Assembly (NCBI GenBank): GCA_020523885.1
Contig: JAJAPY010000013.1
Span: 1 to 64,000, forward strand
Direction: 5' to 3'
DNA length: 64,000 bases
Source: Candidatus Liberimonas magnetica
GTDB lineage: Bacteria; Elusimicrobiota; Endomicrobiia; Endomicrobiales; JAFGIL01
The notes beneath the pieces are model-generated. The model had not been told where the DNA came from and searched no databases. It saw nothing but the letters and a program-made list of their open reading frames with translations. Position 1 is the stretch's first letter, and each line of letters begins with the position of its first letter. Position numbers and translations under genes: made by a program. Shown one piece after another: positions 27,924 to 57,366 of this stretch.

Positions 27924-27927
27924 ATAT

Positions 27928-38110: not shown

Positions 38111-38167
38111 ATCAAAGAGCAAACAGCCTGTTTGCAGTAGTTTGTCAGCAAAGCAGTAATAATCGGG

Positions 38168-38202
38168 GCCTGCCGGTCTAGTAATGCCGGCAGGTCTTTT
38201 TT
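38168..38202 (+). terminator. Terminator after ssb
   Basis: CCTGCCGG (38169-38176) pairs perfectly with CCGGCAGG (38187-38194), followed by TCTTTTTT. Confidence 0.9.
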
Positions 38203-38220
38203 CTATTGGAGGCAGTAATT

Positions 38221-38908: not shown

Positions 38909-38921
38909 GAGGTAATCGTAT

Positions 38922-42100: not shown

Positions 42101-42621
42101 TAACAGGGCTTAACGTTCTTAACCGGGGATTTACAATAACTGCTGCAAATAACGTGATTATTTCGGACATTGAATATACACCCGAATCTACTTTACAGGC
42201 AGAAGACAGAGCGCACAGGACAGGCCAGCAAAAAGAGGTAAACGTTTATTACCTTTTTTCAAAAGGGAGCATAGACGAGCTAATGTTTGAGCTTGTATCA
42301 AAGAAACAGGCAGCAATATCAAATGCAATAGATGGCAAAGCTGCCTATTCTAATCTTGCCGAACTTCTTGAGGGCATGAAAGGCAATATTCAGATGGAAG
42401 TTGCAAAACGGATAACTGTAAACAAGCCAGTTGAAGCTGAAAAAAATGTCATTCCGGTTGCTCTAACAATAACAACTGATTACAAAGAACCTGCAAATAA
42501 CTTATGGAATGAACTATACAAGGCACAGTTAGAGATGTTAAAGAATAAAAGGGCAGAGAAACGAAAAAAAGTCCTTGAACATCTTGCACAGCCAACACTA
42601 TTTGACCAGATGAATAGTTAG
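39136..42621 (+). CDS. DNA adenine methyltransferase fused to an SNF2-type helicase
   Basis: A 1161-residue protein; ATG 39136 has GAGGAGG 8 bases upstream. Residues about 35-330 are an N6-adenine methylase (VLDPTCGSGRLLLPW motif I at about 65; SNPPYGIRWD motif IV at about 128). The C-terminal part is an SNF2 ATPase: YEMGGGKTVTSVCWAK (Walker A, about 540), VIVDEAQMAKTK (about 710), and AEDRAHRTGQQKEVNVYYLF (motif VI, about 1020). Between motifs I and II lies a Cys-rich insertion, CPLCHRSFSDAIKECPKC with a further CLKCGY, one or two zinc ribbons. Probably couples DNA remodelling or translocation to methylation, for element protection or replication. A related mechanism is seen in type ISP enzymes, but no nuclease is visible here. 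Confidence 0.85.
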   Translation: MQTAKQMDNDLKSTGRQSNKNLSFRLYGKSKHQQYYTPNELADCICKMLLPAFDVENIGYLSVLDPTCGSGRLLLPWKNVKAQVLGIELDKEIAVVAKRLIGKENVRTGDLLDYASLLNGFNLAVSNPPYGIRWDVKDKSVSFEATSYGESIESQSATIEIITQALGYNGILAAIIPATTFTNAKDSGLRKHLYSNYDVLLKATLKNVFKAEYNIDVVVDLVIAQKSYVRDEKEKADYEKLEIDIIKDFGWQNTLISAMKKIIEDKKIEVMSSKSGHVPFLNMLEPVETENKANITCRGISGNVSTIALLNFINKTVEDYNVIQGVQTGIVDAYLSSANLIKRGIKPAMEMLKHLGFNAEAKKEDIDRLERLKEKYEFLSMPIYKPKSHQLLAYFYDKEYEAKETVKDKENRVLFKEGKKYHLHPSWVRRKELAKLDNVYDEQSKKNFTIKTEIDRGYLSINVISEQGQKTFREIDLEDIKTFIKVFPLPDVEDVNDKYPKLVESYRKRIESEFPFLFDYQKEDLARLALKNFGYVGYEMGGGKTVTSVCWAKLRNYKHVLIVCQSGLVDNWLNELNKFGFKVQKLTTHSSVDKLKEQKRADQKTGETIYYITSYEFLSLESGKRYDPWDCIEYDKDGNIRRKSTDNKSEKCPLCHRSFSDAIKECPKCKEHEKWTGNVCLKCGYVAYTYTSERKSYPAYKRIRKMFDAVIVDEAQMAKTKNSLRGRAVRALKPKGKLILTGTLMKGYITDIYWNVGWLLGFGNPLFPYNYVGGSKYFLNEFGTFEFVTKQFEDTLSEGRARLIPEVSNLNRFWRIIASFAVRRLKDEMIELPKKNKNILLLPMHQEHADVYNQFQEWATKTIKKAMNMAERNGGEVNMGVISSALWKLRFAATVPNARDYLCDGKGPDAVLSNGSWNKVNKIVELAEQIKQRNEKVIIFSALRPMVSAICKKLRDKGIEFIPILSNHKSSQRFAKIEEFSANGHTAIVTGLNVLNRGFTITAANNVIISDIEYTPESTLQAEDRAHRTGQQKEVNVYYLFSKGSIDELMFELVSKKQAAISNAIDGKAAYSNLAELLEGMKGNIQMEVAKRITVNKPVEAEKNVIPVALTITTDYKEPANNLWNELYKAQLEMLKNKRAEKRKKVLEHLAQPTLFDQMNS

Positions 42622-42644
42622 TAAATACCCAAAAAACGAAAAGC

Positions 42645-42684
42645 AAAAGCCTATCGGGAACTAAAACCCTGGTAGGCTTTTTTT
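42645..42684 (+). terminator. Terminator after the methylase-SNF2 gene
   Basis: AAAAGCCTATCGGG pairs with CCCTGGTAGGCTTTT (a GU and one mismatch), then TTTT. Confidence 0.85.
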
Positions 42685-42706
42685 ACTTAAAAAGGAGGTG
42701 ATTATT

Positions 42707-43189
42707 TTGAATGAAGTAAATAAATGGTATGCGACCTTGATGTTATCTGTACACTGTCTTTGCGAGCAAGGATATAATCCCGAACGGATTATTGATATTG
42801 CAAAACTGCTTGAGCAGAAAACCGGCATAAAAGCAGATTCAGTAATCAGGGAAATTCAAAGAACAATTGACTTTCATATTGACTATGAAAAGCATGAAAT
42901 CAAAAACAGAAAATCGCGTGAAAGAGAAGTTAAACAGCAGGAAAAACACGAGCAAAAGTTCAATGAGCTACCCGCAGACATACAGCATATGATGATAATG
43001 GAAAACAGCGGAAGCTATCACAAGGCGGTTGATGTTTTGGCGAAAAAAGGCAGGAAATATGCCATGTCTTTTGCTGAAAAGCTGAACAAAAACCATAAGG
43101 AGTTTAACCATGTACAGCCCGAAAATCAAAGAGGAATTAATACCGAAGCTCTACAAAATTGCCCGGCAGAAGAACAAGCCCATGACTAA
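42707..43189 (+). CDS. Protein of unknown function
   Basis: A 160-residue helical protein. TTG 42707 is chosen because AAAGGAGGTG lies 7 bases upstream; the alternative GTG (42698) overlaps that site. It has KWYATLMLSVHCLCEQGYNP at the front and a basic coiled-coil middle (KNRKSREREVKQQEKHEQKF). The 3' end overlaps the RHH-like gene at 43110. Unrecognised. Confidence 0.55.
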   Translation: MNEVNKWYATLMLSVHCLCEQGYNPERIIDIAKLLEQKTGIKADSVIREIQRTIDFHIDYEKHEIKNRKSREREVKQQEKHEQKFNELPADIQHMMIMENSGSYHKAVDVLAKKGRKYAMSFAEKLNKNHKEFNHVQPENQRGINTEALQNCPAEEQAHD

Positions 43190-43265
43190 AATTGTCAATG
43201 AGATACTTGAAAGAGAGCTTGCCAGGATTGAGGCTGGAATCAAAAAGGAAGGTGATAACCAATGA
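43110..43265 (+). CDS. 51-residue ribbon-helix-helix-like protein
   Basis: ATG 43110 follows AAGGAG. The product, MYSPKIKEELIPKLYKIARQ, KNKPMTKIVNEILERELARI, EAGIKKEGDNQ, has the strand-helix-helix layout of CopG-like RHH regulators (I-P-K-L-Y-K-I-A-x-x-x-x-x-P-M-T-K-I-V-N-x-I-L-E). It overlaps the gene before and shares its stop with the ATG of the next (ATGA). Probably a local repressor. Confidence 0.65.
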   Translation: MYSPKIKEELIPKLYKIARQKNKPMTKIVNEILERELARIEAGIKKEGDNQ

Positions 43266-43462
43266 CAAAAACAGCTTGTATTTTCAGGAATGAGACAAAC
43301 GAAGTCAGGGAAAGTGGGGTAAAAACTGTTTCACTAATTCCAAAAATGAAGGCAGAAAAGCGATTCAGGGATGATGGCATGTGTCCTGAATGCTTTGCGG
43401 AAATGGTATTGCGTGAAGGCATAACGACTTGTGATTTATGTGGTTATGTTGAATGCGATTGA
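43262..43462 (+). CDS. 66-residue zinc-ribbon protein
   Basis: ATG 43262 overlaps the RHH gene stop. Two Cys pairs (CPECFAEM and CDLCGYVEC) form a likely zinc ribbon. Translationally coupled to the RHH gene. Function unknown. Confidence 0.55.
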   Translation: MTKTACIFRNETNEVRESGVKTVSLIPKMKAEKRFRDDGMCPECFAEMVLREGITTCDLCGYVECD

Positions 43463-43599
43463 AAGGAGTCAAAGGACCTGGGCATGTCTGAAAACTGCCT
43501 GTTTCCCTTTTGATAGTTGGATTTTGCATTTGCATTTTCAGGCTTCATTCCCCCTCATTCCTCTATTCCCCATCAACATCAATATCAGTGCAATGTTCA

Positions 43600-43813
43600 G
43601 TAAATCAACCCCCAGCCCGTAGGGCTGTATATATAACGCACGAAGTGCGAATACAAAAGAAATAATGGCGTAGCCATTAAAGTACTTATAAGGCACTTAT
43701 AACATAGTCCCTCATTGAGCGAACCTCAATGAACGAGTGAAACATCCTGCGAATTAGAGCGGTAGCGAAATGAGAGCTGACTACGGCAATTTAACGGAAG
43801 GCTTACGCCTTCC
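43600..43813. repeat. Array of short perfect hairpins, no gene
   Basis: Hairpins in a row: AGCCC-GTA-GGGCT (43614-43626), CGCAC-GAA-GTGCG (43637-43649), AATGGC-GTA-GCCATT (43664-43678), CATTGAG...CTCAATG (near 43714-43732), GGAAGGC-TTAC-GCCTTCC (43796-43813). Stems are 5-7 bp and loops mostly three bases. Candidates are an origin, a transfer site or RNA processing points. The last stem overlaps the 3' end of the next gene. Confidence 0.6.
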
Positions 43814-44213
43814 TGTGTATCTTCTCCAAAATCTTACCTAACTTCTTGGAATATTCCTCTTCATTCAAATTAATTCCTTTGGCATTCCTGTAATGCTCAA
43901 CCTCAAAATCATTAAGCACTATCCTGTCAAAAGGGTCATAGATATTTCGCAATTCCTTCAAGCGTTCATCAAAGAAATACAGCTTGTTTTCTACCCTGAC
44001 TACTTTAAGCCTTGTTGGCATTGTTGCGCCCATGCGTTCCGCTAAACTTCTTACTCTTTCGGTAAAATACGCTTGGCTTTTACCTTTCTCTATCCATCGC
44101 CCAAACTCCATAATCTCGGCTTCGCATTCTGGGCATTCACATGCCTCGTCAAGTTTTACGCTTGGGTGATATTCGCAATGAGTGCCTGCCTCAGTTTCAT
44201 TATTTTCTACCAT
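43803..44213 (-). CDS. Protein of unknown function with a Cys/His N-terminus
   Basis: A 136-residue protein. AAAGGAGG lies just before the ATG at 44213. The N-terminal part has HCEYHPSVKLDEACECPECE, Cys and His suited to bind one zinc. The C-terminus is basic and helical. It faces left, away from the SIR2-TPR gene. No family recognised. Confidence 0.55.
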   Translation of the reverse strand: MVENNETEAGTHCEYHPSVKLDEACECPECEAEIMEFGRWIEKGKSQAYFTERVRSLAERMGATMPTRLKVVRVENKLYFFDERLKELRNIYDPFDRIVLNDFEVEHYRNAKGINLNEEEYSKKLGKILEKIHRKA

Positions 44214-44643
44214 TTTATTTTAAACCTCCTTTCATTTTTATTCTTTTCTTTTATAAAAAACCCCCGATTATTGGGGGATAATTCCATTACTCCCCCTATG
44301 GATAGAACGGGGGTGGCGGATATGCGGGGGCAGTAAAATAAAGAATAAGCCCAAAAAACTTATATGGCTAGCTGAACGCATTGTGAAGCGCCTTATATGT
44401 TTTTAGCATAGAAGCCGTATCATTTTGTCTTAGGAAGGTATCAAAGAAGTTTAGAATATCTGGCTAACATACCATAAGGTTTTATCCTTAAAATATATCA
44501 GCGCAGGTATCCGTGTGCAATAAAATCAATGCAACGGAGTTTATATATTTTATTATATGGGGTGCTTAATAGCTACATGCTATTGTTCAATCATGTTTCT
44601 TATTCTATAATATGACCAATATAGTCTGCTTTAGGGGAGCATC
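44214..44643. other. Gene-poor control region between divergent genes
   Basis: Contains a minus-facing terminator-like hairpin (CCCCC/GGGGG, 44261-44277, T-run toward the left gene), another G/C-rich inverted stretch (CCCCCTATGG...GGGGGTGG near 44292-44318) and no gene I can support. The SIR2-TPR promoter is expected near 44580-44640, but no clean -35/-10 pair stands out. Confidence 0.5.
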
Positions 44644-46926
44644 ATGCTCTGGAATGGCACAAATAGAAAATATATATGCGAAATAATAAGGGAAAGTTCT
44701 GCCGGAAATGTTGTCTTCCTTGCTGGCGCTGGGGTTTCAATTTTGCCACCCTCTTCTTTGCCTCTTGCTCCCGAATTATCCGGGCTACTTATAAAAAATA
44801 TCTTTCAAGGTGAAGATAAGATACTATCAAACATACCTTTTATAAGACCCGAGATAATTTTTGAGGCTACTAGAAAAGTGATTGGCGATAGAGTGTTCCG
44901 CTTATTTGAGATTTTTAAAAGCGATTTACCAAATGATTGTCACTTGTGCCTATCTGCTTTATGTGCGCCCATATTAACAACAAATTTTGATGAACTGTTT
45001 GAAATAGCATTTGAAATAAATGGCTATAGAAAAGAGTATCATTCAGGGTTAAGTTTGAGTTACACAAATGTTGCATCGGGGCAATTCACCACGCTTGTAA
45101 AACTTCATGGTATCCTTAATCAACCAGAGACAATTATTGCATTTTTATCAAAAATATATGAGGGTATAGATCCTGAAATATACAAATATTGTTATCAGCT
45201 AATCAGGGATAAGATACTTGTAATAATAGGGTACAGTTGCCATGACATGGATGTTTTTGAATTAATAGTTGATTCACAGCCTTCAAAAATAATATGGATA
45301 GATATATCTTTCAGGGATCAACATGATTCACTTCGTCAACAATTGATGAAAAGATTTCAAACTCACCAAGTTTTGTGTAATATTGCAGATTTCTCAAAAT
45401 TATTTCAAAGCACACACAATTATAATAAATCTTTAGACCATGCAAATTCATGGAAAAATTGTTTGGTATCGTTTTATCTATCCCTGACGAAAGAAGAAAT
45501 TGAGAAAATACGCGGTCATATTATGGCTTCTCTTGGATTCGCGGACTATGCTACTACATTATTGGAAAAGTATTTAATAATCAATGCTCAAATATACTCT
45601 ATGAGTGAAAAAACTAAAGATTATGAGCATCTCGCAAAAGATTATTTTGAACTTGGGAAATATAAAAAAGAGGCGTATAGACCTTATGAAGAAGTTTCTG
45701 ATATACTGATGAAAGCATTTCATTTCTACAAAAAAGCTGATAACTGGAAAGGGCAATGCGAAGTACTATGGGAAGTCGGTTTAAAAGCAATTGACAGTTC
45801 GGAATGGAAAAGCGCAGAGCGGTATTTCAATGATTTAGCCGTTATAGCTGAACAAAATCATTTCCAGATATACATGACTTTAGCAAAAATAGGCAAGGCA
45901 TTGCTGCATTATTGGCAGTCTGCAACAGTTGAAGATTTTAAAATAGCGCTGGAAGAATTTGAAAAATCCAGGTCTGTTCTTTCGAAATCAGGAAGATATC
46001 GGGACTTGTTAAAAGTATATCGTTTAATCGCATCAGTCAATTTTGTTAGAGCAAAGTATAAGGAAGCGTTAGAAGCTGATATGAAATGTTATGATATAGC
46101 AAAAGATATAGGCGACTTAAAGGAACAGGCTAATTGTATTCGAGATATGGCTACATGTCTTAGGAATCTTGGAGAATATAAGAAGCCATTCGTTATGTAT
46201 CTTGATTCGCTTAAACTTGGATTCATTGCGCCTGATTTTAATAACTATGGCATTACTATAGGAAATGCATCGGAAATGCTTTTGGAGCAAGGTTTTACTC
46301 AGACTGCATTGGAAGGTGCCAAGCTATCGGTTTATCTTCTGGAAAAGACAAAAAATGAATTATACAAAATATCCTTTCTTCAAGCCTTGTCTCTTGCTTA
46401 TACAAGGTGTGGAAATCAAGACGAAGGACTTAGAACTATTGAGAAAAGTATTGCTCTGGCACATAATATGCATGATTATTTCGAAGAGGCAATTGCAAGA
46501 TACACTAAATCCATAATTCTAGGAGAAAATAAAAGATATTCTGAAATGCTTAATGAATTGAAAAGAACGATGGATTTGGCATCTCGGACAGAAAATAAGG
46601 CAATATACTACCTCAGTAATTCTTTGCTTCTATTTAAAGAAAATCATGTTTTCCCAAAATCGTATCAAACAATAAAGGAAAACATACAGGCATTAGATAC
46701 TATGGGGGCAGAAAATGAAAAGTTAATACTAATTTCAAAAGTGTTTAAGTCATATTTTTTGAACCCATTAAAAAACCCCTTGTTAATATTTTCTTTATTT
46801 GAATTTATATCATTGAAAACTGTCAGATGTTTTATCAAAAGAATAGGTTTTGTTATTTGGCTAAAACTCATTGGAGAGAAAAGATTTCACAATTACTTGT
46901 CTTCTATTGAAAAGATAGCAGAATAA
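44644..46926 (+). CDS. SIR2-like domain protein with TPR repeats
   Basis: A 760-residue protein. The N-terminal 230 residues are a SIR2-like (NAD-binding) domain: VVFLAGAGVSILPP (G-A-G-x-S), PILTTNFDELFEIAF (T-T-N-F-D), TTLVKLHGIL (K-L-H-G) and VIIGYSCHDMDVFE. This Rossmann set occurs in antiphage effectors that deplete NAD+. The remaining residues are TPR-like helical repeats (ANCIRDMATCLRNLGEYKKP, SFLQALSLAYTRCGNQDEG), likely a sensor. Start ATG 44644 with AGGGGAG before it. It stands alone, with long spacers on both sides, as solitary defence genes often do. The layout is that of SIR2-TPR abortive-infection proteins; the trigger is unknown. Confidence 0.82.
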   Translation: MLWNGTNRKYICEIIRESSAGNVVFLAGAGVSILPPSSLPLAPELSGLLIKNIFQGEDKILSNIPFIRPEIIFEATRKVIGDRVFRLFEIFKSDLPNDCHLCLSALCAPILTTNFDELFEIAFEINGYRKEYHSGLSLSYTNVASGQFTTLVKLHGILNQPETIIAFLSKIYEGIDPEIYKYCYQLIRDKILVIIGYSCHDMDVFELIVDSQPSKIIWIDISFRDQHDSLRQQLMKRFQTHQVLCNIADFSKLFQSTHNYNKSLDHANSWKNCLVSFYLSLTKEEIEKIRGHIMASLGFADYATTLLEKYLIINAQIYSMSEKTKDYEHLAKDYFELGKYKKEAYRPYEEVSDILMKAFHFYKKADNWKGQCEVLWEVGLKAIDSSEWKSAERYFNDLAVIAEQNHFQIYMTLAKIGKALLHYWQSATVEDFKIALEEFEKSRSVLSKSGRYRDLLKVYRLIASVNFVRAKYKEALEADMKCYDIAKDIGDLKEQANCIRDMATCLRNLGEYKKPFVMYLDSLKLGFIAPDFNNYGITIGNASEMLLEQGFTQTALEGAKLSVYLLEKTKNELYKISFLQALSLAYTRCGNQDEGLRTIEKSIALAHNMHDYFEEAIARYTKSIILGENKRYSEMLNELKRTMDLASRTENKAIYYLSNSLLLFKENHVFPKSYQTIKENIQALDTMGAENEKLILISKVFKSYFLNPLKNPLLIFSLFEFISLKTVRCFIKRIGFVIWLKLIGEKRFHNYLSSIEKIAE

Positions 46927-47015
46927 GACGTTTCAATATAATTCAGATTGGTTGCAATTAGAAAAGGCAAGGAAGGGCAAAAGCCGAGCCCGGAGGCTCG
47001 GCCTTCAAAAAGCCC

Positions 47016-47297
47016 TCACTTCCTACCTCTTGTTAATTCATCAATCATCGCGGAAGCCTCGGATTTACTGATGTTCTCGCTTTCTTTCAGGTAGCCGTGT
47101 CGTTTGAGAAACTCCACCTGTTTAAAAGTCGCTGGCTGTGTTGCCTGTGAAGCCCTTGCAACGTTCATTACTGCAACCCTTCTGTCCTTGTTTATCTCTT
47201 GGAAGATAGCCAAAGCCACTTCGGTTTTGTTCTCTGCAATCTTATCCAGCTTGCCGTATATGTCAACAAATTCTGTTATGTATTGTTCTTTTTCCAT
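47016..47297 (-). CDS. Small protein with a TxxQxxFLKxxGY motif
   Basis: A 93-residue protein with AAAGGAGG before ATG 47297. The C-terminal half has PATFKQVEFLKRHGYLKE followed by SKSEASAMIDEL, a short motif that recurs in phage and element proteins (T-x-x-Q-x-x-x-L-K-x-x-G ... S-K-x-E-A-S). The N-terminal half is helical. Probably a nucleic-acid-associated accessory protein; exact role unknown. Confidence 0.6.
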   Translation of the reverse strand: MEKEQYITEFVDIYGKLDKIAENKTEVALAIFQEINKDRRVAVMNVARASQATQPATFKQVEFLKRHGYLKESENISKSEASAMIDELTRGRK

Positions 47298-47336
47298 GTT
47301 TCTTGTTTACCTCCTTTTAGTTTTATGACAATGACC

Positions 47337-47696
47337 TCAATACTCCGATTTGAGCAGCAAAACCCCGCCTATGCAGTAGCACTCAAACTCCTTTAAAGGA
47401 AAGTCCGTATATTCCAGCTTCTGCTCAACGATTACGGGCAGGTTGCTGTCCTCTTGGCAGGTTGCCACGGCAGTTTTGTCCTTGTTTACCTTCAAACTCC
47501 AAAGCTGAAAAGGCACGTCTTCAAGCTTGTGCTGGTAGCTTCCTATAAGGTCAATAAGCCAGTATGCCCCTGTCTTGTCAGCCAGATACTTTATGCCATC
47601 TGTAAACTTTAAGCCTGTAAAACTTCGGAAATACTGCTCTGTTCCTGAAAAACCTTTAAGCTCTCTTATCAAATCTTTTTCATTTATTTTATCCAT
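47337..47696 (-). CDS. DUF6876-like small protein
   Basis: A 119-residue protein. It opens with DLIRELKGFSGTEQYFRSFT and continues GLKFTDGIKYLADKTGAYWL with a Leu-Ile-Asp, the pattern of the phage/plasmid family I know as DUF6876. The C-terminus KEFECYCIGGVLLLKSEY is also typical. Function unknown. It is in the same direction as the 47016 gene, 39 bp away. Confidence 0.7.
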   Translation of the reverse strand: MDKINEKDLIRELKGFSGTEQYFRSFTGLKFTDGIKYLADKTGAYWLIDLIGSYQHKLEDVPFQLWSLKVNKDKTAVATCQEDSNLPVIVEQKLEYTDFPLKEFECYCIGGVLLLKSEY

Positions 47697-48071
47697 TTTT
47701 TATACACCTCTTTGTATATGTGGGCTTATGAAAACCCCATAAGCCCCATAGGGGTGCATAAGAGGTGTGGGCGAGATGCGGGTTTCGGAGAAACAAAAAG
47801 GCTTAAAAGCTAAAGGCCGAACGGGAGTGAAACGGACTTCGGAGTCTGAAGGCAGAGCGGGCAAACTGCCAATGCGCAGGCAAACCCGAAGCAGGAAGAC
47901 CTTTTTATGCCTTTTAGCAATCGAAGCCCGTAAATATTCTAACTGCATAAAGATAAAAGCCCAGTCCTGAGACCGAATGCGAAGAGACGGGCGTGCCGTT
48001 GATTACATATCGGCTAATCAACGGGCTATTAAAATGATATAATTGAATAAAATTTATTGGAGGGTATAAAT
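47697..48071. repeat. Second hairpin array, no gene
   Basis: Includes GGGCTTATG/CATAAGCCC (47722-47746), CCCC-ATA-GGGG (47744-47754), GTTTC-GGA-GAAAC (47782-47794), GACT-TCGG-AGTC (47835-47846) and GGCA...TGCC (47851-47870). Same style as 43600-43813: short perfect stems with 3-4 base loops. No open frame of quality. Confidence 0.55.
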
Positions 48072-48353
48072 ATGCATGAAGCGATTGAAGGTATTCTAAA
48101 CATAATTCCCCGTGGTTATGTTTTTGACAGTCATTATGTTATTACACAATTGATAAAAAAGGAATCAGATGTATATCTCAATTTTGCAAGTGCTATAAAT
48201 ACAGAAACTAACAGGACTCTTGTGGCTCATGGCCAGATAGGGCAAGAAATTGCAACATTTCAAGGGGTATTGGTTGAAAGCATTGGAAGGGAATGGTCTG
48301 AAAACATCCATGGTAATTCAAGCGAGTGCGAAGCTTGGAGAAAACTTATATAA
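48072..48353 (+). CDS. Small protein of unknown function
   Basis: A 93-residue protein. I choose ATG 48072, with GGAGG 8 bases upstream. Mixed alpha/beta, no Cys pairs except one near the end (NSSECEAWRKLI). No signal peptide and no family recognised. Confidence 0.5.
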   Translation: MHEAIEGILNIIPRGYVFDSHYVITQLIKKESDVYLNFASAINTETNRTLVAHGQIGQEIATFQGVLVESIGREWSENIHGNSSECEAWRKLI

Positions 48354-48462
48354 GGGACACTCAATCTCTTGATATTTGGGTGCATTCATATCATTCAAAG
48401 TGAATTTAGAAGTGAATTTAGAAAGATTTGATTTTGAAGATATAAAATTGTATTATTAGAGC

Positions 48463-48870
48463 ATGGAAGAACAAAGAAAAACAGTAGTCGAAATAGTGAA
48501 TGGTAACCCTAAATTCCAGAGTGTTATAAAGGAATATCGAGAAAATAAGTTTCTATTAGAAGGTGTTTATCACCCACTCGCATATTTAATAGATGCAGAT
48601 AAGATTGAAAGTGCATGGAAAAAAAATAAGTCGAAGATCAACGCTATCGCACAAGGAATGGCCTTATACAATGATTTTTTTACTGAAGCAATGAATTCAG
48701 TACTTTTGACCGGCGATTCGAGAGTCTCAAAAGAAACAAGTGGAAAATTAGAGAAATGGAAAGGCGTAGTGGAGAAATTATTTCAAGCCGATTATAAAGA
48801 AATTGAAGAAATGAGTAGCAGGCTTGGTCAATATTTGGAATTTATGAATAGAAAGTCACAAGGATTTTGA
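48463..48870 (+). CDS. Helical protein of unknown function
   Basis: A 135-residue charged protein (IVNGNPKFQSVIKEYRENKF, KINAIAQGMALYNDFFTEAM), all helix, no TM segment. No clear ribosome-binding site before ATG 48463. Not recognised. Confidence 0.45.
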   Translation: MEEQRKTVVEIVNGNPKFQSVIKEYRENKFLLEGVYHPLAYLIDADKIESAWKKNKSKINAIAQGMALYNDFFTEAMNSVLLTGDSRVSKETSGKLEKWKGVVEKLFQADYKEIEEMSSRLGQYLEFMNRKSQGF

Positions 48871-48915
48871 TAACTCCAACTAAAAAATTAAAAAATTGAG
48901 AATTATAAAACCGAC

Positions 48916-49476
48916 CTATATTTTCAGCCAGACATACGGCCTGACATTAACCTTTGAATAATACTCATTATTAAGGTTATATCTGCCGTTCATTTCCGTA
49001 ATGGGCGCAAGCCCGTACTTATCTTCAAAACCCTCAACAATCTTTTCTATTGTTTCCGGCATTAGGTTCAGACCTGTCTTTTTAGCAAGCTTAGTTAACA
49101 GTTCTTCTATTGAAAGGTGTTTATTGCCATTGAATGCAGATGGCAGGTAGAAATCGAGGTGGCGGGTTTTTCTGCGATATATGCAATTATAATCGCGGCC
49201 TTTTTTGCTGGTTTCCGTAGGGTGTTCTTTTCTGTATTGCTTTTGATACTCAATAGAGTGTTCACGTACATGTTTTTCCATGCGGTATTGAATACCAGAA
49301 GAAGTTACTTGATACTTTTTAGCCATCGCAATATATATCTGATGCCTACTTGGTAATAAATTTGATAGTTCATTATAAACGCTTTTAAGTTCGATATTGG
49401 AAACATATTTTAGTTTGCATGCCATTTTATTAATTGTTTTTGGGTCGTAAAAAGGGTATTTAAATATTGCGAGCAA
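48916..49476 (-). CDS. Putative DNA-binding protein
   Basis: A 186-residue basic protein from TTG 49476; ATG 49425 (MACKLKYVSN) is an alternative, and neither has a clear ribosome-binding site. Residues about 40-65 could form a helix-turn-helix (RHQIYIAMAKKYQVTSSGIQ), followed by a strongly basic stretch (EYQKQYRKEHPTETSKKGRD). No family recognised. Confidence 0.5.
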   Translation of the reverse strand: MLAIFKYPFYDPKTINKMACKLKYVSNIELKSVYNELSNLLPSRHQIYIAMAKKYQVTSSGIQYRMEKHVREHSIEYQKQYRKEHPTETSKKGRDYNCIYRRKTRHLDFYLPSAFNGNKHLSIEELLTKLAKKTGLNLMPETIEKIVEGFEDKYGLAPITEMNGRYNLNNEYYSKVNVRPYVWLKI

Positions 49477-49659
49477 ATAAATATTTTACAAGAACCTTGA
49501 CAAATTAATTCCGGCGAGGTATACTATTGCTGTAAGTAGGTCATCTTAATATTTTGATTAGAGCGGTTACACCGCAAGGTAAGAGCCGACTATTCAGTAA
49601 ACACCTTTTGCAGAGGTTTTTATTGGTTGGTCGGCTTAAATTGTTTATAGGGGTTAATC

Positions 49660-50763
49660 GTGAGTAAAAAAGAGTCAGATAAAATATCATTTGCCGGGAA
49701 ATATTATAAGATAAAAATAAAAAGTTTATCTGAGATGAAATCAATTATTGATAAGGAATATTATCCAATACAAGTAGGGAAATATTCGGATTTCGTTAAT
49801 AAATATGTTAAAAATGGTCAAATCACTTATTCGGGCAGTAAAGATGAGTTAAATTTTACAAGTCCGGAAAATCTTCTTGGTTCACTATTAAGCTTGAATC
49901 CAATAATTGCAGCTTCTATGGTAGATGTAATAGAAACTGACAAAAATGACAATGATTCTTTGCATATCATAAAAACGAAGACAGATACTGTTAAGTGTCC
50001 GATACAAGAGTGTTCAGATAGGAAAGAATGCTACAAAAAACATGTCATGTCAAAATCCGTCATGGTAATGCACGATCCTGTGTTTTGGGTGGGTAGTTTA
50101 GAGAAAAAGATAGAGCCAATATGTCTTAGAAGGTGTATGAATACGGGTAAATTTTATTGGATGCAAACAAAATATGCTACAGATGCGCGTGGAATATATC
50201 CATGCAGGGATGCTTCTGATTTTTTTGATGAAAACGACATTGATTTAGAATCTATCAGGAAGGAATATAAGCAAGGCAATACAATTATAGATAAGGCATT
50301 TGAAGAAAATAAAATAGAAATTAGCACTTTTAAAAGCATAAACAATAAACAACTTGCGGAAGCTTTTAATGATATATTGCGGTCTTTTGAAATTTGCTTT
50401 TTCGACACTGAAACAATTCCTTCACTCGATAAAGGGTTTCGCACTTTATTAAAACAAGTGCGAGCGAGAATAAAAAGGATGTATCGTAATAAGGAGAATA
50501 CAATCGGCGAGCGTATAAATATGACTAGATCAGGGTATATATTCAAGATAAGAAGAATAAATAAATATTTATTGATTAAATTATTCCCAAATACTTTAAA
50601 GAACACTCAAGACAGGGCGGTTAATTGTCCTATATGTGGATGCAATAGATTTGAAAGAGGTTTTAATGAAGAAGATGATAGATATATAGCGGTATGTGAA
50701 CAATGTTGTCAAATTGTTGAAGAGTTCTTTGATTCATCGAGAGATGAAATACTTCCCATATAA
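49660..50763 (+). CDS. Large Cys-rich protein of unknown function
   Basis: A 367-residue protein from GTG 49660 (GGGG 9 bases upstream). Two zinc-binding sets: a central CPIQECSDRKECYKKH and a C-terminal CPICGCNRF...CEQCC, the latter like a zinc ribbon. The middle is basic and helical (VRARIKRMYRNKENTIGERI). Zinc ribbons plus a basic middle suggest nucleic-acid binding, perhaps in replication; inference only. A strong terminator follows. Confidence 0.55.
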   Translation: MSKKESDKISFAGKYYKIKIKSLSEMKSIIDKEYYPIQVGKYSDFVNKYVKNGQITYSGSKDELNFTSPENLLGSLLSLNPIIAASMVDVIETDKNDNDSLHIIKTKTDTVKCPIQECSDRKECYKKHVMSKSVMVMHDPVFWVGSLEKKIEPICLRRCMNTGKFYWMQTKYATDARGIYPCRDASDFFDENDIDLESIRKEYKQGNTIIDKAFEENKIEISTFKSINNKQLAEAFNDILRSFEICFFDTETIPSLDKGFRTLLKQVRARIKRMYRNKENTIGERINMTRSGYIFKIRRINKYLLIKLFPNTLKNTQDRAVNCPICGCNRFERGFNEEDDRYIAVCEQCCQIVEEFFDSSRDEILPI

Positions 50764-50786
50764 TTAAAGCCTACACTGAATAAGTA

Positions 50787-50846
50787 AGGGGCTAAGTGGT
50801 TTCTGGTTTTGTTTTATAAAAAACCAGCCATTTAGCCCCTTTTTTT
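50787..50846 (+). terminator. Strong terminator
   Basis: AGGGGCTAAGTGG pairs with CCATTTAGCCCCT (one GU) with an inner CTGG/CCAG stem, followed by seven T. It separates the Cys-rich gene from the right-end operon. Confidence 0.92.
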
Positions 50847-50914
50847 ATGCCAAAACAGGGGGGTGATGATTGTCGGGATTGCAGGGCAAAATATTTCTAA
50901 AAGGAGAATGTATC

Positions 50915-51166
50915 ATGAAAATTCAGATTAATAGTGGTAGGCCTTTTCATGTTGTTACAGAACTCAATTTGCCTGATGTTTTTGGATACCAATATTCAGT
51001 ATCGTTTTTAAAGGAATATTTCTCTAAACAGTTGGGAGTTGCGTTATTGGATGTAGTTTTTTCCGACACAATCAGCGAGATGATAGGGATAAATAATGAT
51101 GCAATTTCAATGAAGCGAGCCATATTATTGAAACGTGAGAAGAGAGATTCTAAAAAGCGTAAATAA
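50915..51166 (+). CDS. 83-residue protein, first gene of the right-end operon
   Basis: ATG 50915 after AAAGGAG. No recognised domain; the basic tail (LLKREKRDSKKRK) suggests nucleic-acid contact. The longer frame's TTG start (50870) is rejected for lack of a ribosome-binding site. Confidence 0.55.
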   Translation: MKIQINSGRPFHVVTELNLPDVFGYQYSVSFLKEYFSKQLGVALLDVVFSDTISEMIGINNDAISMKRAILLKREKRDSKKRK

Positions 51167-51226
51167 AATGAGGCGATACTGTGCAAAAGCCCAAATGAAG
51201 TTGAAATTCAAAAAAGGAGGCTCAAA

Positions 51227-51430
51227 ATGCAAGCAAAAGTGCTGGGAGAATTAAAAGATTTCAAAAACGTCCAAGATTTTCAGGATTATTGCCGTGATCT
51301 GATTAAAAAGAAGGAACAAAGACGGATTGAGTTAAAGAACGAAGACAAGACGCTCAAAAAGGAGATTAAAGAGCTGAAAGGAGACATCGGCGACGAAAGC
51401 AGGGAAGAGACCACGACGGAAGAAAAATAA
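51227..51430 (+). CDS. Coiled-coil protein, paralogue 1
   Basis: A 67-residue protein with AAAGGAGG before ATG 51227. The product reads MQAKVLGELKDFKNVQDFQD and continues as a long charged helix, ending GDIGDESREE. The same pattern appears in the protein at 51867 (ILGEMKYFKDVQEYQGQVRK; ADIGGKEKEE), so the two arose by duplication around the acidic gene between them. Confidence 0.65.
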   Translation: MQAKVLGELKDFKNVQDFQDYCRDLIKKKEQRRIELKNEDKTLKKEIKELKGDIGDESREETTTEEK

Positions 51431-51450
51431 TATCTGTAAAGGATGGTGCT

Positions 51451-51864
51451 ATGTTCTTAATAGATGATTTGCATAATTTGGTCAAAGAAGCATTGGTTAA
51501 TCTTGCCAAACCATACGAAACCAACACTGACCTTGAGGCAGTCAGAAAGTATCACGGCAGCAGGGAAGATGACGATTCAAGAAGGGGCCTTGACCGAGAT
51601 TGTCCCGACAATAGCAAGGTGCGGGGGCATTGGTATGTTGATGAAGATGGTTATATTTCAAAAACCCCTCCTGAATCTCCCAATTCGCAGAAAACGTTTG
51701 AAGACTCCCCTGAGTCTGAAAGGCACAGCACGCATGAAGTTCAGTCAGACCTTTCTAATTTCTGTAGCGGGTTTGATGAAGGCGGTCCTTCCAACAGAGA
51801 ATCTGCCAATGACCCGTCTGATTCATCTGAACAATCGAGTTTGTCAGACTTTAGCGGTGATTGA
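51451..51864 (+). CDS. Acidic disordered protein
   Basis: A 137-residue protein. After a helical start (FLIDDLHNLVKEALVNLAKP) it is rich in Asp, Ser, Glu and Pro, low in hydrophobic residues and probably disordered. An overlapping frame at 51464-51913 is less likely, because it lacks a ribosome-binding site and the chosen one fits the gene spacing. It lies between the two coiled-coil paralogues. Possible DNA mimic or assembly linker; speculative. Confidence 0.55.
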   Translation: MFLIDDLHNLVKEALVNLAKPYETNTDLEAVRKYHGSREDDDSRRGLDRDCPDNSKVRGHWYVDEDGYISKTPPESPNSQKTFEDSPESERHSTHEVQSDLSNFCSGFDEGGPSNRESANDPSDSSEQSSLSDFSGD

Positions 51865-51866
51865 AA

Positions 51867-52091
51867 ATGCTCAAGGAGGCAGCAGAAATATTAGGCGAGA
51901 TGAAGTATTTTAAGGATGTGCAAGAATATCAGGGGCAAGTAAGAAAACTCATCAGTGATTTCCTAAGTGAGATTGAAAAGGCTAAAGATACGATTAAGTT
52001 GCGTAAGAAACAAATTAAGAATTTGCGGGCAGACATCGGCGGGAAGGAAAAGGAAGAAAAAACGGATTTTCAGGAGAAAGAAAATCTTTAA
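51867..52091 (+). CDS. Coiled-coil protein, paralogue 2
   Basis: A 74-residue protein. ATG 51867 overlaps the ribosome-binding sequence AAGGAGG; the alternative ATG 51900 would drop the conserved front. The body (SDFLSEIEKAKDTIKLRKKQ) is a long coiled coil related to the 51227 product. Part of the operon reading into the HerA paralogue. Confidence 0.6.
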   Translation: MLKEAAEILGEMKYFKDVQEYQGQVRKLISDFLSEIEKAKDTIKLRKKQIKNLRADIGGKEKEEKTDFQEKENL

Positions 52092-52102
52092 GGAGTTAAC
52101 CA

Positions 52103-52522
52103 ATGAATAATAATAGTAACAATAATCCTAACGATTTTTATGAACAGATTTTCGGGACTCCGCAGGCTAACGCTCAGCCTACGACAATTATTAAAAGAAA
52201 GCTTGTCAGAAGAAACGGAGTTGACAGTCTGATGTACGAGGTGATACAAAAGCTAACCATGGGGCAAGACGGCAATCCGCAATTGCTTATAGAAGAACGG
52301 CACGGGGTTCTCGATGACGGCGCGCCATTCGAAGTTAAAATAGGTTTTACGACCTGTTCACAAGGGCACATCGTGCACCCTGGAAATATAGGATTTTGTC
52401 CCCAGTGTGGCCGCAAATATTGCGTGAAGTGCTGGGATTCCGAGTGTAGTGTATGTCATGTTGATTTGCAGTTTCAAAGCTTGGGCGCATTGACAGACGG
52501 GCACTCAAAACAACTTCGCTGA
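52103..52522 (+). CDS. Zinc-binding protein, paralogue 1
   Basis: A 139-residue protein, AAGGAG before ATG 52103. A front Asn-rich linker leads to a beta-rich part (KRKLVRRNGVDSLMYEVIQK) and a C-terminal cysteine cluster CSQGHIVHPGNIGFCPQCG, CVKCWDSECSVCH, with treble-clef/RING-like spacing for two zinc ions. The 52536 product is a clear relative with the same K-R-x-x-V-x-R/K-x-x-G front and G-H-I-V. It is directly upstream of the second HerA-like fusion. Confidence 0.7.
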   Translation: MNNNSNNNPNDFYEQIFGTPQANAQPTTIIKRKLVRRNGVDSLMYEVIQKLTMGQDGNPQLLIEERHGVLDDGAPFEVKIGFTTCSQGHIVHPGNIGFCPQCGRKYCVKCWDSECSVCHVDLQFQSLGALTDGHSKQLR

Positions 52523-52535
52523 AGGAGGCCACTCA

Positions 52536-52925
52536 ATGAATAAAGATACTGTTTTTTATGGTTCTGGTGAATCTGACAATGGGGATGATAATAAGCCTGT
52601 AAGGAAAGTTATGAAAAGGGTTGCCGTAAAGAGGAAAGACGGGAAAGAGCTTGTTTTGCATGAGGTGATTGTTACCGCATATACCGGGCCTGACAATACG
52701 CCTGACTCTGGGCAGGTCAGTCATTTCGGCACTCTGGATGATAACAGCGTCTATGATGAATCTCTGCCGGTGGTTTCATGCAATAACGGGCATATTGTGC
52801 AGGGATTAATTACCTGTCCGAGATGCAGAAAGACAATGTGCAAAACGCCTGGCTGTCATGGGACTAATTGCGTCGGGATTGAATGCCCTTTTTGTGGGAA
52901 AACTTTTGAGTGCAAATATGGATAA
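52536..52925 (+). CDS. Zinc-binding protein, paralogue 2
   Basis: A 129-residue protein, AAGGAGG before ATG 52536. Front: KPVRKVMKRVAVKRKDGKEL. C-terminal cysteines CNNGHIVQGLITCPRCRKTM, CKTPGCHGTNC, CPFCGKTFEC give two or three zinc sites. Its stop overlaps the HerA paralogue start by 8 bases (ATGGATAA), the same layout as the 36635/36642 pair. The pair is probably translated together, and the zinc protein may be a subunit of the HerA complex. Confidence 0.7.
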   Translation: MNKDTVFYGSGESDNGDDNKPVRKVMKRVAVKRKDGKELVLHEVIVTAYTGPDNTPDSGQVSHFGTLDDNSVYDESLPVVSCNNGHIVQGLITCPRCRKTMCKTPGCHGTNCVGIECPFCGKTFECKYG

Positions 52926-54879
52926 TTTTGACTTCAAGCAAAGAATTCTTCTTAATACTGTAATGAACAGACTCAAGGAAAAGAAAGTGCTTACAGGAGA
53001 AGCTCAAGCGCTCTTCCTTAATGCGTCCTTATCTCCGAGTCCTGAGACTTTTACTGCCTTTTTAGGCTGTGCCGGGGAGTTAATACAGAATGCAGGGAAA
53101 GTATCGCCTTTTTACAAGCCGGATATTAAGGATAATATTCAGGGAGTAATGAAATTCGGTTTTAGTGAAAACGTCATTCCTGTAGGGATAGACATAGGGC
53201 AGTTTCATACCGCAGTTTTCGGCCAGACGCGATCCGGCAAAAGCGTGATGCTTTTTATGATGTTGGCGCAAGCGATGAAGCAAAATAATTCTGTATTCTG
53301 GGTATTTGCAAGAGCCAATGATATAAGAAGACTGCTTCATGTCAGCAATGATATTGTTTTCGTTACTTTTGACGGGCAGATCAGATACAATCCGATTCCA
53401 AAGGATGAGAACCTTGCCCGCTTTACCGACCCTTTTATACAGGCTACAACCCTGTTTGACGGGACAGACAATTATCTTGCCGAGCAGATTTACAGGCTAA
53501 AGATTGAAAAGCCGGAGCCATCATTGTCGGATTTGTACAAGCATATAATGTTTCAGAAGCATTTGACTAACTCACGGCAGGATCAGTACAAGCAGAGTTC
53601 CCTTAACAGGCTGGGAGGCATATTGAGAAGCAAGCTCGGGAATTTCCTGAAAGGCGGGAAGGATTGCTTTGAACAGCTTATAAATCATAATGTAGTCTTT
53701 GAAATGAATGAGTTAAGATCATGGGAACAGGTGCTTGTGGTTAACCTGCTGATTCTTCATCTTTCAGACTGGAAAAGGAAGCATGCATCAGACTTGCACC
53801 ATATTATTGTGCTTGAAGATGCCTCAGCAATTTGCAACATCGCATTTGACAGGAATCCGAGAAAGCCAATCCTTGCGGACAGTTTTGACACATTGGCAAA
53901 AGATGGTTTTCAGTTTATTGTACTTTCCCAGTCGCCAGGTCAAGTGATGCATTTCCTCCACGCAGAAACCGACTGTAAGATTTGCCTTAAACTTTCGAAC
54001 ATGGATGACGCAATTCTTATGGCACATAAGCTCGGCGTGGAAAAAGAGCATTGGGAAAAATTCTTTTGGCTTCCAGCAAGAACAGGGTTTGTCAGCATGA
54101 AGGGGCTTCCGGCATTTCTTTTCAGGATTCCTGAAATACCTCTGATTGATTATTCATGCTTTACTGATGATTGGCTGAAACAGAATAATGCACGGCTTCT
54201 AGGTATAACAGAAGATGAAAACGTTGAAATTGAGGATGAAGAAGCAGAAGATGTTAAGGAAGAACTGAAAAAAGATGAGAGAAAGTTGCTGGAAGCAATA
54301 CATGTGAAGCAGTTTGTTGCTTCTATGGGGATGCTCTCAGAAATAACTGGTTTTGATGTAAGCAAAATCAGTCGTATGTCTAATGTTCTTGCAGAAAGAG
54401 GGTACATTTCAATTTGTGACATTCGAATCGGGAAAAGGCCCTTTCGGTATCCTGTACTTTTGGTGCGGGGATATCAAGCGCTTGGAATTGAGGAAGCTGA
54501 AAAGCAGGAATGTAAGGGCGGGCCAGATCACCGTATTTGGATATTTTTATTTGAGTCAAAGTTTAAGAAAAAGGGCATTAGCGCAGAGCATGAAAGGTTT
54601 TTAGGAGAAGGTCATAGTTCAGACCTTGTTTTGAAGTTATCGGATTATTCCGTAGGGGTTGAGGTTGAGCTTTCTTCCGCTAACACAAAAAACAATCTGG
54701 AAAAGGGATTGAGGCTTGGCTTAAACTACATTATTTTCGGGGCAAAGGACAGGAAAACCTTGCGCGAAATTCAGGCAATTATTAACGATTCATCTGAAGA
54801 GAATAAAAAGAAATGTTTTGCTTATTCGTTGACTGAGATTTACGAAGCAGAAAATATTATGGATTTGATTAAGCTATGA
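52918..54879 (+). CDS. HerA-like ATPase fused to a winged helix and PD-(D/E)XK-like nuclease (paralogue B)
   Basis: A 653-residue protein; ATG 52918 is chosen because it overlaps the zinc-protein stop (the longer frame starts inside that gene). Walker A is VFGQTRSGKSVMLFM at about residue 100, and Walker B is HIIVLEDASAICN at about 300. Next an acidic linker (ENVEIEDEEAEDVKEELKKD), then a winged helix (VASMGMLSEITGFDVSKISR), then the nuclease-like end: HRIWIFLFESKFKKKGIS, SSDLVLKLSDYSVGVEVELS (D...E-x-E). Same three-part order as the 34609 product, so they are paralogues. A motor-nuclease fusion could process double-stranded element DNA or defend against phage. Operon of seven genes with small spacers. 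Confidence 0.8.
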   Translation: MDNFDFKQRILLNTVMNRLKEKKVLTGEAQALFLNASLSPSPETFTAFLGCAGELIQNAGKVSPFYKPDIKDNIQGVMKFGFSENVIPVGIDIGQFHTAVFGQTRSGKSVMLFMMLAQAMKQNNSVFWVFARANDIRRLLHVSNDIVFVTFDGQIRYNPIPKDENLARFTDPFIQATTLFDGTDNYLAEQIYRLKIEKPEPSLSDLYKHIMFQKHLTNSRQDQYKQSSLNRLGGILRSKLGNFLKGGKDCFEQLINHNVVFEMNELRSWEQVLVVNLLILHLSDWKRKHASDLHHIIVLEDASAICNIAFDRNPRKPILADSFDTLAKDGFQFIVLSQSPGQVMHFLHAETDCKICLKLSNMDDAILMAHKLGVEKEHWEKFFWLPARTGFVSMKGLPAFLFRIPEIPLIDYSCFTDDWLKQNNARLLGITEDENVEIEDEEAEDVKEELKKDERKLLEAIHVKQFVASMGMLSEITGFDVSKISRMSNVLAERGYISICDIRIGKRPFRYPVLLVRGYQALGIEEAEKQECKGGPDHRIWIFLFESKFKKKGISAEHERFLGEGHSSDLVLKLSDYSVGVEVELSSANTKNNLEKGLRLGLNYIIFGAKDRKTLREIQAIINDSSEENKKKCFAYSLTEIYEAENIMDLIKL

Positions 54880-54892
54880 TGAATATTGAGGT

Positions 54893-55084
54893 GTTACTAA
54901 ATTCAATAAAAAGCCAAAACTTACCATTTCTATCGCTAGTGTCAATATCGAACAAAAAAATGATGCCCTTACCCTTGAACATCTGCTGGATATCCTTTTG
55001 CTTGCCAAAAAAATAGCAGACAAATCCAAAGAAGAATCTGATAAAATACAAAAACAGTTTCTTGACAATTCAAAACTATTGTAA
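54893..55084 (+). CDS. Small coiled-coil ORF without a standard start codon
   Basis: A 63-codon open frame ends at TAA 55082-55084. Its product, starting near VTKFNKKPKLTISIASVNIE, then EHLLDILLLAKKIADKSKEE, looks natural (amphipathic helix), and the GAGG at 54888-54891 would serve as ribosome-binding site. No ATG, GTG or TTG lies in frame at the expected place: GTT is found at 54893. It may be a mutated gene or use ATT or another rare start. Confidence 0.4.
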   Translation, partial: VTKFNKKPKLTISIASVNIEQKNDALTLEHLLDILLLAKKIADKSKEESDKIQKQFLDNSKLL

Positions 55085-55130
55085 TAAGATGTGAAACGCT
55101 ACAAAAAAATTACAGAAAGGAGGTGATTTT

Positions 55131-56810
55131 ATGCTTGAACCTAATCCGAAACAGAAAGTAAAAGTTGCACTTTATGCGCGTGTTTCAACTGAAGAACAGA
55201 CAAATAACTATTCTCTGGATGCACAGAAGGACTTGCTTATTAAATATGCCAAAGAGAACAACTTTGTTATTACAGGGGAATACATAGACGGCGGTTATTC
55301 AGGAACGAGCGATGACAGGCCGGAATTCCAAAAGATGATGGAAGATGCGAGAGGGGGTAAATTCAATTTGGTGCTGTTTTACAAGTATGATAGGCTTTTT
55401 AGGAACAATAGGCATTTGCTGAATACAGTTGAACAGCTTTCTCAATATGGTGTTGCAATAAAATCAATCACAGAGCCTTTTGACACAAGCAACCCTATGG
55501 GCAAGTGCATGGTCTCAATTTTGGGTAGTATGGCAGAACTAGAGAGGAATAATTTTTTGGAACGCTCGAAGCAAGGCAAATTAAGAAGGTACAGGGAAGG
55601 TTATTATGCCGGGAGCGGAGTTTTTGGCTATGATTATGATAAAGAGACAGATATTCTCACAATAAACACTAATGAGGCAGAAATTGTTAAGCATATTTTC
55701 AGTGAATATATTCAGCCGGAGTCTTCCCTATTAAAGGTTGCAAGAAATTTGAGAAAGCAGGGTTTGAAGACAAAGAAAGGGCTTGAGTTTCAGTCTCATT
55801 GTATTCATGGTATTCTTTTAAATTCAATGTACACAGGAAAATGGTATGCGAATAGATTAGGCCCTAAAAACAGCCTGAAGCCAAGGGATCTATGGATTGA
55901 AGTCAAAGTGCCTGCAATAGTTTCAGAGGAAGAATATAATCTTGCACATAAGCTTCTAAAGGAAAGGCGCATTTATTCCAAAAGAAACGTGAAGTATGAT
56001 TATCTCTTACAAGGGCTAATTAAATGTGGTGCTTGTGGCTCTAAAATATCAGGCACATCAGACAGCTCATTGCCAACAATGATTAATGGCAGGCAGTACG
56101 GGCCTTATTTCAAGCTTTATTACAGGTGTAATCATTACTCAAAAAATCTCTTTGAAAAAAAAATTAGCTGTGATTTGAGATGGATTCAGTCTGAATTGAT
56201 TGACGGTGCTGTCTGGAATAAGGCTGACATCATTCTAAATAATCCTGAAATTATAAGAAAAGCCGTAGAACGGGAAAGAGAATCAATGCCTGAAAGGGAT
56301 GTTTTGCAGAAATCTTTGAAGAAGAATGAGGATGCTCTAAAAAGACTTTGCAGGGAAGAAGAAAGGATAATTGAGGCTTACAGGCGCAATATTATCAGTA
56401 TTGAGCAATTAGACCAGCAGATTAGCGATATAAGGCTGAAGAAGGAGGCTTATAGCCATGAAATTGAAAGAATTGGCCTTCTGCTTGAGGATAAGAAGGA
56501 GAATATTGAAAGTGCCATTGATTGTGTCAGCCAGATAAACAAAGGCATTGGAAAGCTCAATCCTGATATAAAGAAACGGGTCTTGAGGCTTCTTGACACA
56601 AGTGTTGTGGTGAATACCAACGGAAAGGCAAATCTTACCTTTAGGATTCCGCTATCCCTTCCAGAGTCTTTTCCCCCTATTATGTCGGCAGAACATGCAT
56701 CACACCCGCATTTACGAATTTGTTCTTCATTTCATAGCTCAGGTTTTCATCACTCCCGACAAGCATTGGTATCAATAAAGATGCTTCCAAGGCGGGGAAT
56801 TTATCCTTGA
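55131..56810 (+). CDS. Large serine recombinase; tail switched by integration
   Basis: A 559-residue integrase. The resolvase-type catalytic domain has VALYARVSTEEQTNNYSLDA, nucleophile Ser19, and KYDRLFRNN. Recombinase domain about 165-300. A zinc ribbon follows (LIKCGACGSKI...YRCNHYSK...CD, about 300-345), then a coiled coil (EEERIIEAYRRNIISIEQLD, about 400-480). AAAGGAGGTG precedes ATG 55131. The frame crosses the element border: codons 522-559 come from antisense comEC. Codon 521 (GAA 56691-56693) is the last element codon. In the predicted circle the frame continues into the RHH frame at 9273, for 652 residues in total. It probably catalyses integration at the GT/AC core inside AAC in comEC. 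Confidence 0.95.
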   Translation: MLEPNPKQKVKVALYARVSTEEQTNNYSLDAQKDLLIKYAKENNFVITGEYIDGGYSGTSDDRPEFQKMMEDARGGKFNLVLFYKYDRLFRNNRHLLNTVEQLSQYGVAIKSITEPFDTSNPMGKCMVSILGSMAELERNNFLERSKQGKLRRYREGYYAGSGVFGYDYDKETDILTINTNEAEIVKHIFSEYIQPESSLLKVARNLRKQGLKTKKGLEFQSHCIHGILLNSMYTGKWYANRLGPKNSLKPRDLWIEVKVPAIVSEEEYNLAHKLLKERRIYSKRNVKYDYLLQGLIKCGACGSKISGTSDSSLPTMINGRQYGPYFKLYYRCNHYSKNLFEKKISCDLRWIQSELIDGAVWNKADIILNNPEIIRKAVERERESMPERDVLQKSLKKNEDALKRLCREEERIIEAYRRNIISIEQLDQQISDIRLKKEAYSHEIERIGLLLEDKKENIESAIDCVSQINKGIGKLNPDIKKRVLRLLDTSVVVNTNGKANLTFRIPLSLPESFPPIMSAEHASHPHLRICSSFHSSGFHHSRQALVSIKMLPRRGIYP

Positions 56811-57366
56811 TAGTTTTAATAATGTTTTTCCTTAAAGAATAGGCAGCTGATTTGTAAAAAGGAGGCTGCTCATAACCTGTTTTCTCGATTGATTTCGCGT
56901 AAAAAATAGTATATATACCCTTACGGCCCAGGTATTTTGCGTAATTAAATCCTCCCGGGTTAGTTGTTTGAAACGGTGTTTTAATATCCCCGTTCATTAA
57001 AAGGATATCTCCGGGTTCAATATCGTTGATCTGTTTTTCTTTTGGCTTATAATTTATAAGTGTTTTTCCGCCTCTTTTGGCATTATTTAAAGAATAAATA
57101 TCGAGCACAAACGCTACTTTGCCGTTTCTTTCTTCCGGAGGAAGTATTACTCGCCCCCGTAATAGCTGTTTTTGCTGTCCGGCATAGATAGATATGCCGT
57201 CCTTAGAAGGAGGGGAAACAAAAAAACCTTTTAGGTCAAGTATGAGCAAAGTAAAAGCATACAATAAAGTTAAAGTTATTATAGGCCTTTTTGTAATTAA
57301 TTTATAAATAAATATGAAAGGGTTTAAAGAAACATGAAAGGTAAGTTTGGAACTGTTGTTTTCCAT
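56680..57366 (-). pseudogene. comEC: ComEC 5' fragment
   Basis: The first 225 codons of comEC. The native end is GVMHV at the attR core, where three element-encoded residues (LPT) and a stop follow. The N-terminus has membrane helices (IITLTLLYAFTLLILDL) and the OB-fold-like DUF4131 region (LLRGRVILPPEERNGKVAFV, GDILLMNGDIKTPF). The motif LLIPMLVGSDENLSYEMKNK then FVNAGVMHVL is the start of the competence domain. Joined to 7708-9267 it forms the full 744-residue protein. Natural transformation should be lost while the element is integrated. Confidence 0.95.
56692..56694. other. Right attachment junction (attR core AAC)
   Basis: Element sequence TCGGCAG-AAC is followed by host comEC ATGCATCACACC. 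The shared triplet with attL is AAC; the bases on either side differ (G versus A before, G versus A after). Both fragments of comEC join in frame at the triplet. Confidence 0.85.

Follow-up and report, generated by a model that had tools for sequence, protein, structure and literature searches.

A serine recombinase gene that probably spans its own attP and exchanges a DNA-binding tail upon integration into comEC

How serine integrases choose and remember the direction of recombination has long been asked, and in practice it limits what genome engineering can do with them. The window, that is, the whole stretch of 64,000 nucleotides analyzed here (Candidatus Liberimonas magnetica, Elusimicrobiota; contig JAJAPY010000013.1, positions 1 to 64,000), brings this question down to a single gene: a large serine recombinase (LSR) whose reading frame crosses the right border of an integrated element. 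Does integration exchange the end of the recombinase itself, and what would the free element encode in its place? If true, recombination itself would edit the C-terminus of the enzyme.

The element in comEC and the recombinase gene at its right border

The element and its insertion site comprise the following features.

9268..56694: integrated mobile element of 47.4 kb in comEC (common core AAC; comEC restored by joining the flanks; comEC continuous in relatives)
9268-9270: attL core (AAC)
56692-56694: attR core (AAC), within the recombinase frame
7708..9270, minus strand: C-terminal part of comEC, severed from its start
56692..57366, minus strand: N-terminal part of comEC

The core common to attL and attR is exactly AAC (3 bp). 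Joining the host flanks gives an uninterrupted ComEC of 745 amino acids, which reads through the junction (...NAGVMHVL followed by VVSGLNVAYVV...) without a stop. In 35 of 39 further genomes searched within the order, the gene is also unbroken across the insertion point, and the closest relatives are 67-68% identical; by this comparison, attB in comEC is confirmed. The borders are of the kind expected for LSR attachment sites, with a short core adjoining the LSR gene, a host gene interrupted, and an excision that restores it. Competence genes are enriched among LSR targets, a preference that comEC (and comM, described below) fits (PMC10083194).

Several other features were observed in the element. 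A tRNA-like gene (9756-9843), called as tRNA-Asp(atc) yet with a long, leucine-like body, is preceded by a perfect match to a TTGACA-17-TATAAT promoter (promoter-like, 9681-9709). Further in, 12392-13924 encodes a secreted-looking metallo-beta-lactamase plus fn3 protein, the first domain of which we take to resemble the ComEC C-terminal type. Two tyrosine recombinase genes (27237-27923 and 32893-34122) are also present.

The LSR ORF, as integrated, occupies 55131-56810 (559 codons) and is made up of two parts.

55131..56693, plus strand: element-encoded part of the LSR, codons 1-521 (Resolvase 7e-41, Recombinase 2e-16, Zn_ribbon_recom 4e-10)
56694..56810, plus strand: tail of the integrated form, codons 522-559 and stop, from antisense comEC

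Its start carries a near-perfect Shine-Dalgarno sequence (-12.9 kcal/mol). The domain order is that of the LSR class: the catalytic Resolvase domain comes first, and the Recombinase and zinc-ribbon domains lie after it. All of them lie in codons 1-521 and are kept on integration, which separates the gene from suicidal integrases, and attP sits in the recombinase frame, not in a repressor gene as in phage BPs. Codon 521 is GAA (56691-56693), and host antisense-comEC codons 522-559 follow. In comparisons with homologues, recognizable LSR homology stops at about residue 510; the enzyme core is thus complete before the crossover, and attP starts where the enzyme ends. No homologue above about 37% identity was found for this LSR in IMG/VR, genome contigs, phages, and plasmids.

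The predicted circle form and its RHH tail

The opposite end of the element carries an ORF whose product resembles RHH proteins.

9271..9665, plus strand: predicted tail of the circle-form LSR, codons 522-652 with the stop (RHH protein, preceded by the attP right arm and a linker)
9273..9665, plus strand: RHH ORF as integrated, start at GTG 9273 or ATG 9315, both lacking a Shine-Dalgarno sequence
9366..9509, plus strand: probable first RHH unit, approximately residues 32-79 (PHROG matches; strand-helix-helix layout in a low-confidence model)
9567..9662, plus strand: probable second RHH unit, approximately residues 99-130 (RHH_3 at 99-130, RHH_1 at 113-130; low-confidence model)

When the element ends are joined, codon 521 is followed by CGT and GTG 9273, and the frame stays open to TAA at 9663-9665, giving 652 residues; the LSR frame thus passes across attP into an element-encoded tail. 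The sequence-only reading had given this same GAA-CGT-GTG junction and length, together with the antisense-comEC origin of codons 522-559, and its coordinates and frame were all correct. As no contig of the genome contains the joined attP, the circle is inferred and not observed, and the 652-residue form is the predicted product of the free circle.

The RHH ORF matches RHH_1 (1.6e-5) and RHH_3 (2.8e-5) with scores above the curated cut-offs (25.2 bits against 20.5 and 24.4 against 21.6, respectively), as well as PHROG repressor families. Judging from these profiles and from a structure model of low confidence (pLDDT 54), the protein probably consists of two RHH units in tandem. A Shine-Dalgarno sequence is absent at both GTG 9273 and ATG 9315, in the integrated and circle forms alike, while about 69% of the genes in the window have one. 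No close homologue of the RHH protein was found in 341 genomes of the phylum, phages, plasmids, or IMG/VR.

Tails of related recombinases in the phylum and in phages

LSRs approximately 28-35% identical to that of the window occur in many genomes of the phylum. At all 26 loci with a recognizable target (16 miaB, one mtaB-like, one comM, and eight tRNA genes), the LSR frame runs into the target and the stop lies inside it, so that an attP outside the recombinase frame, which would have spoken against the sequence-only reading, was encountered in no phylum homologue with a readable target. One miaB ORF was called by Pfam and the tRNA-Gln of genome G122 by ARAGORN, the remaining tRNA targets and the mtaB-like gene being called by reading the sequence. 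Where the target is a tRNA gene, attP and attB may supply the same stop, and only protein-gene targets can therefore prove a swap.

Such a case is provided by two genomes (G149 and G150) with two LSR elements in tandem at miaB. The LSR adjoining miaB ends in ...LSRSDAR and a stop, whereas the same LSR type before the left end of the next element reads ...LSRSD-DLWIGFRLALYKFLKTLYT before its stop. As read from this pair, the 20-residue element tail of miaB-LSRs is replaced by AR and a stop upon integration. Across 21 distinct sequences, this tail contains neither stop nor gap; its pN/pS is 0.40 when read in the LSR frame and 0.78 and 1.65 when read in the others, and the third-position excess is significant at p~0.002 (ten representatives, <80% identical). 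Very probably, therefore, this tail past the crossover truly belongs to the coding sequence of the LSR.

Side observations were made at some of these loci. In G118-G160 (e.g., L069-L075 and L101-L130), an inverted copy of the LSR 3' end, attP, and tail often lies about 320 bp upstream of the miaB-LSR, and many more att-like copies are scattered or in series; this suggests that miaB harbors arrays of LSR cassettes as well as modules that can invert. The comM element of G331 and the tRNA-Gln element of G122 have a distant ATPase in common with the window element, and their LSR frames cross attR; their left ends were sought in these two genomes and not located. Two truncated comM N-terminal fragments, L059 (G331:C3:251993-252709) and L060, end in the same foreign peptide (GTQYDI..), and the comM C-terminal half beside the LSR is on a contig other than those of the fragments. 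One further LSR, L025, is 784 aa long; its additional C-terminal region gives only a sub-threshold match to HTH_ParB, and this LSR was excluded from the evidence.

A profile of the phylum LSRs was used to search IMG/VR. It recovered phages (L208-L211; G343-G346) in which the LSR (703 aa) continues in one ORF into a tandem XRE-HTH tail. In these phages, the LSR gene is internal to the contig, and on contigs of sufficient length lysis genes on the opposite strand come next. The isolated Paenibacillus larvae phage Harrison also has LSR and HTH_3 in one gene (53.5% identical over 98%). A close relative of the LSR-HTH phages, IMGVR_UViG_3300013884_000012 (G341), is a record of 47,225 bp that reads as a provirus and stops exactly at gene ends, host flank lying outside it. 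Its LSR, 92% identical to that of a phage relative over residues 3-542, closes the record at the right, with its tail replaced: the DNA follows the free form up to CGAACCGCCA, then diverges, and the LSR ends in ...RTARDSYWL and a stop. At the left end, the HTH tail (position 1-423, 84% identical) comes first, with an ATG of its own, and the same lysis genes follow it there. Pfam detects no HTH in this LSR and HTH_3 (1e-21) in the left-end protein. A pN/pS of 0.15-0.18 indicates purifying selection on the HTH tail.

By these comparisons, the separation of an LSR tail by integration is real and recurrent, and its RHH version is a single case. The sequence-only reading had placed attP within a coding fusion and proposed that integration parts the catalytic portion from a DNA-binding tail, which both the junction and the homologues support. 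It had also suggested looking for homologues that are fused when free and tail-less when integrated; these were found with an XRE-HTH tail (L208-L211 and Harrison fused, G341 split to its two extreme ends), but not with an RHH tail.

Other phage LSRs were also noted. Among the IMG/VR loci L146-L207, several ORFs end in GGFEPPIGI- or GFEPTTFRL-type peptides, as though the frame had run on into a tRNA gene at attR; it seems common outside this phylum, too, for attP to lie within the 3' end of the LSR. In Acetoanaerobium phage ANDSL2_ph1, a related LSR lacks the HTH tail, and its 3' end overlaps a comM fragment; this N-terminal fragment (L225:5601-6161) comes directly after the LSR and before the endolysin gene.

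Possible roles of the tail and comparison with known systems

The window element is, in our view, probably the RHH version of an LSR gene built across its own attP, with a tail swapped by integration. In the free circle, the gene would encode a 652-residue protein composed of LSR, linker, and tandem RHH. Crossover in comEC would cut the gene at codon 521 and substitute 38 host-derived residues for the RHH tail, leaving the RHH ORF alone at the opposite end, 47 kb away. As long as the element remains free, the tail might bind element DNA and tether or auto-regulate the enzyme; loss of the tail might then act as an automatic signal that integration has happened. Thereafter, the tail-less LSR would be competent for excision with a partner, and the free RHH protein would be, at most, weakly translated.

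It has to be considered whether the open frame is only incidental, with attP overlapping the LSR 3' end, the stop lost into attP, and an independent RHH gene lying in phase by chance. RHH transcription-factor genes are common beside integrases, as are attP sites overlapping the 3' end of LSR genes, and many LSR frames enter tRNA genes with no sign of function. A random frame of the element has a probability of 0.47 of running 15 or more codons without a stop, so that an in-frame open fusion to the neighboring gene is expected in about 16% of cases (about 1 in 6). Taken with the lack of a close homologue of the RHH protein or of the LSR (none above about 37%), this makes the window alone suggestive, and no proof. 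Nevertheless, the end of the LSR at attP and an RHH ORF without a Shine-Dalgarno sequence favour a real fusion, since a separate RHH protein would lack a ribosome site in both forms. In two other LSR groups, the tails encoded past attP show conservation in the LSR frame, and phages have DNA-binding tails fused across attP; these homologues make the LSR-RHH fusion much more likely, and incidental read-through is, on balance, unlikely.

What a genuine tail would do is a matter of weaker preference. The RHH and XRE-HTH folds suggest tethering or autoregulation in the free element: with the units bound close to attP or to the LSR promoter, less LSR would be expressed or the enzyme would stay anchored to its own DNA, an effect that integration would lift. 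Both are typical repressor folds, the PHROG matches of the RHH ORF are repressors, and such a role accounts for unrelated DNA-binding folds serving as tails. On the other hand, both an operator and DNA binding by the tail are putative, and the miaB-LSR tails, of about 20 residues, are not DNA-binding domains; we regard this role as possible, and hold it tentatively. Alternatively, the RHH tail could be a directionality factor (RDF), the fused enzyme favouring attL x attR and being restrained in attP x attB, with free RHH protein as the excision partner of the tail-less LSR. In its favour, the RHH ORF sits just inside the left end; against it, RDF activity is not known for the RHH family, and the known RDFs of serine integrases have, to our knowledge, no sequence signature in common. 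Artificial integrase-RDF fusions do reverse direction and lower attP x attB recombination; by analogy, though, a free form so fused would integrate poorly (PMC5737554), and we consider a role as RDF rather improbable. As the tails differ among LSR groups (short helix-like, XRE-HTH, RHH), a function common to them is conjecture. That serine integrases widely carry an element-encoded DNA-binding tail (RHH, XRE-HTH, or other) across attP, such that integration turns a tethered or self-regulated enzyme with a tail into a tail-less one plus a free DNA-binding protein, and no separate regulator is needed for directionality or for a memory of lysogeny, is a speculative generalization that we would put forward with some doubt. 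The isolated phages Harrison and Paisley, which have the LSR-tail architecture, make the idea directly testable, and natural LSR-tail pairs could yield integrases with built-in one-way or self-limiting behavior.

Several known systems resemble the one proposed here in part. In mycobacteriophage BPs, attP lies inside the repressor, a lysogeny gene, and integration likewise gives a C-terminally different protein, which in BPs forms a lysogeny switch; there, however, the repressor and not the recombinase is cut, and what is lost is a degradation tag rather than a DNA-binding domain (PMC4557955). The archaeal suicidal tyrosine integrases (SSV/pTN3-type) also have att in their own integrase gene, which is split on integration, but the catalytic gene is destroyed, whereas here the core stays whole and the tail alone changes (PMC8371274). 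Engineered serine integrase-RDF fusions carry an extra C-terminal domain too, and theirs strongly affects direction, although they are artificial and permanent, and their partner is a proven RDF (PMC5737554). Closest in architecture are the Paenibacillus phages Harrison and Paisley and IMG/VR L208-L211, with LSR and DNA-binding tail in one ORF when free and a relative split in a provirus; they differ in having a tandem XRE-HTH tail in place of RHH, and an LSR only about 29% identical to that of the window. The integrase of myxophage Mx8 has its C-terminus replaced on integration, with attP in int, but it belongs to the tyrosine family, and its tail is not known to carry a DNA-binding domain. 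In the literature search, no description was found of an LSR-RHH fusion, in agreement with the sequence-only reading, which knew of no serine recombinase gaining or losing an RHH tail, nor of a serine integrase whose tail is swapped, or whose DNA-binding tail is removed, by integration. Overall, attP within a lysogeny gene (BPs) and within archaeal integrases is already known, while the loss of a DNA-binding tail by a serine integrase through integration is apparently new.
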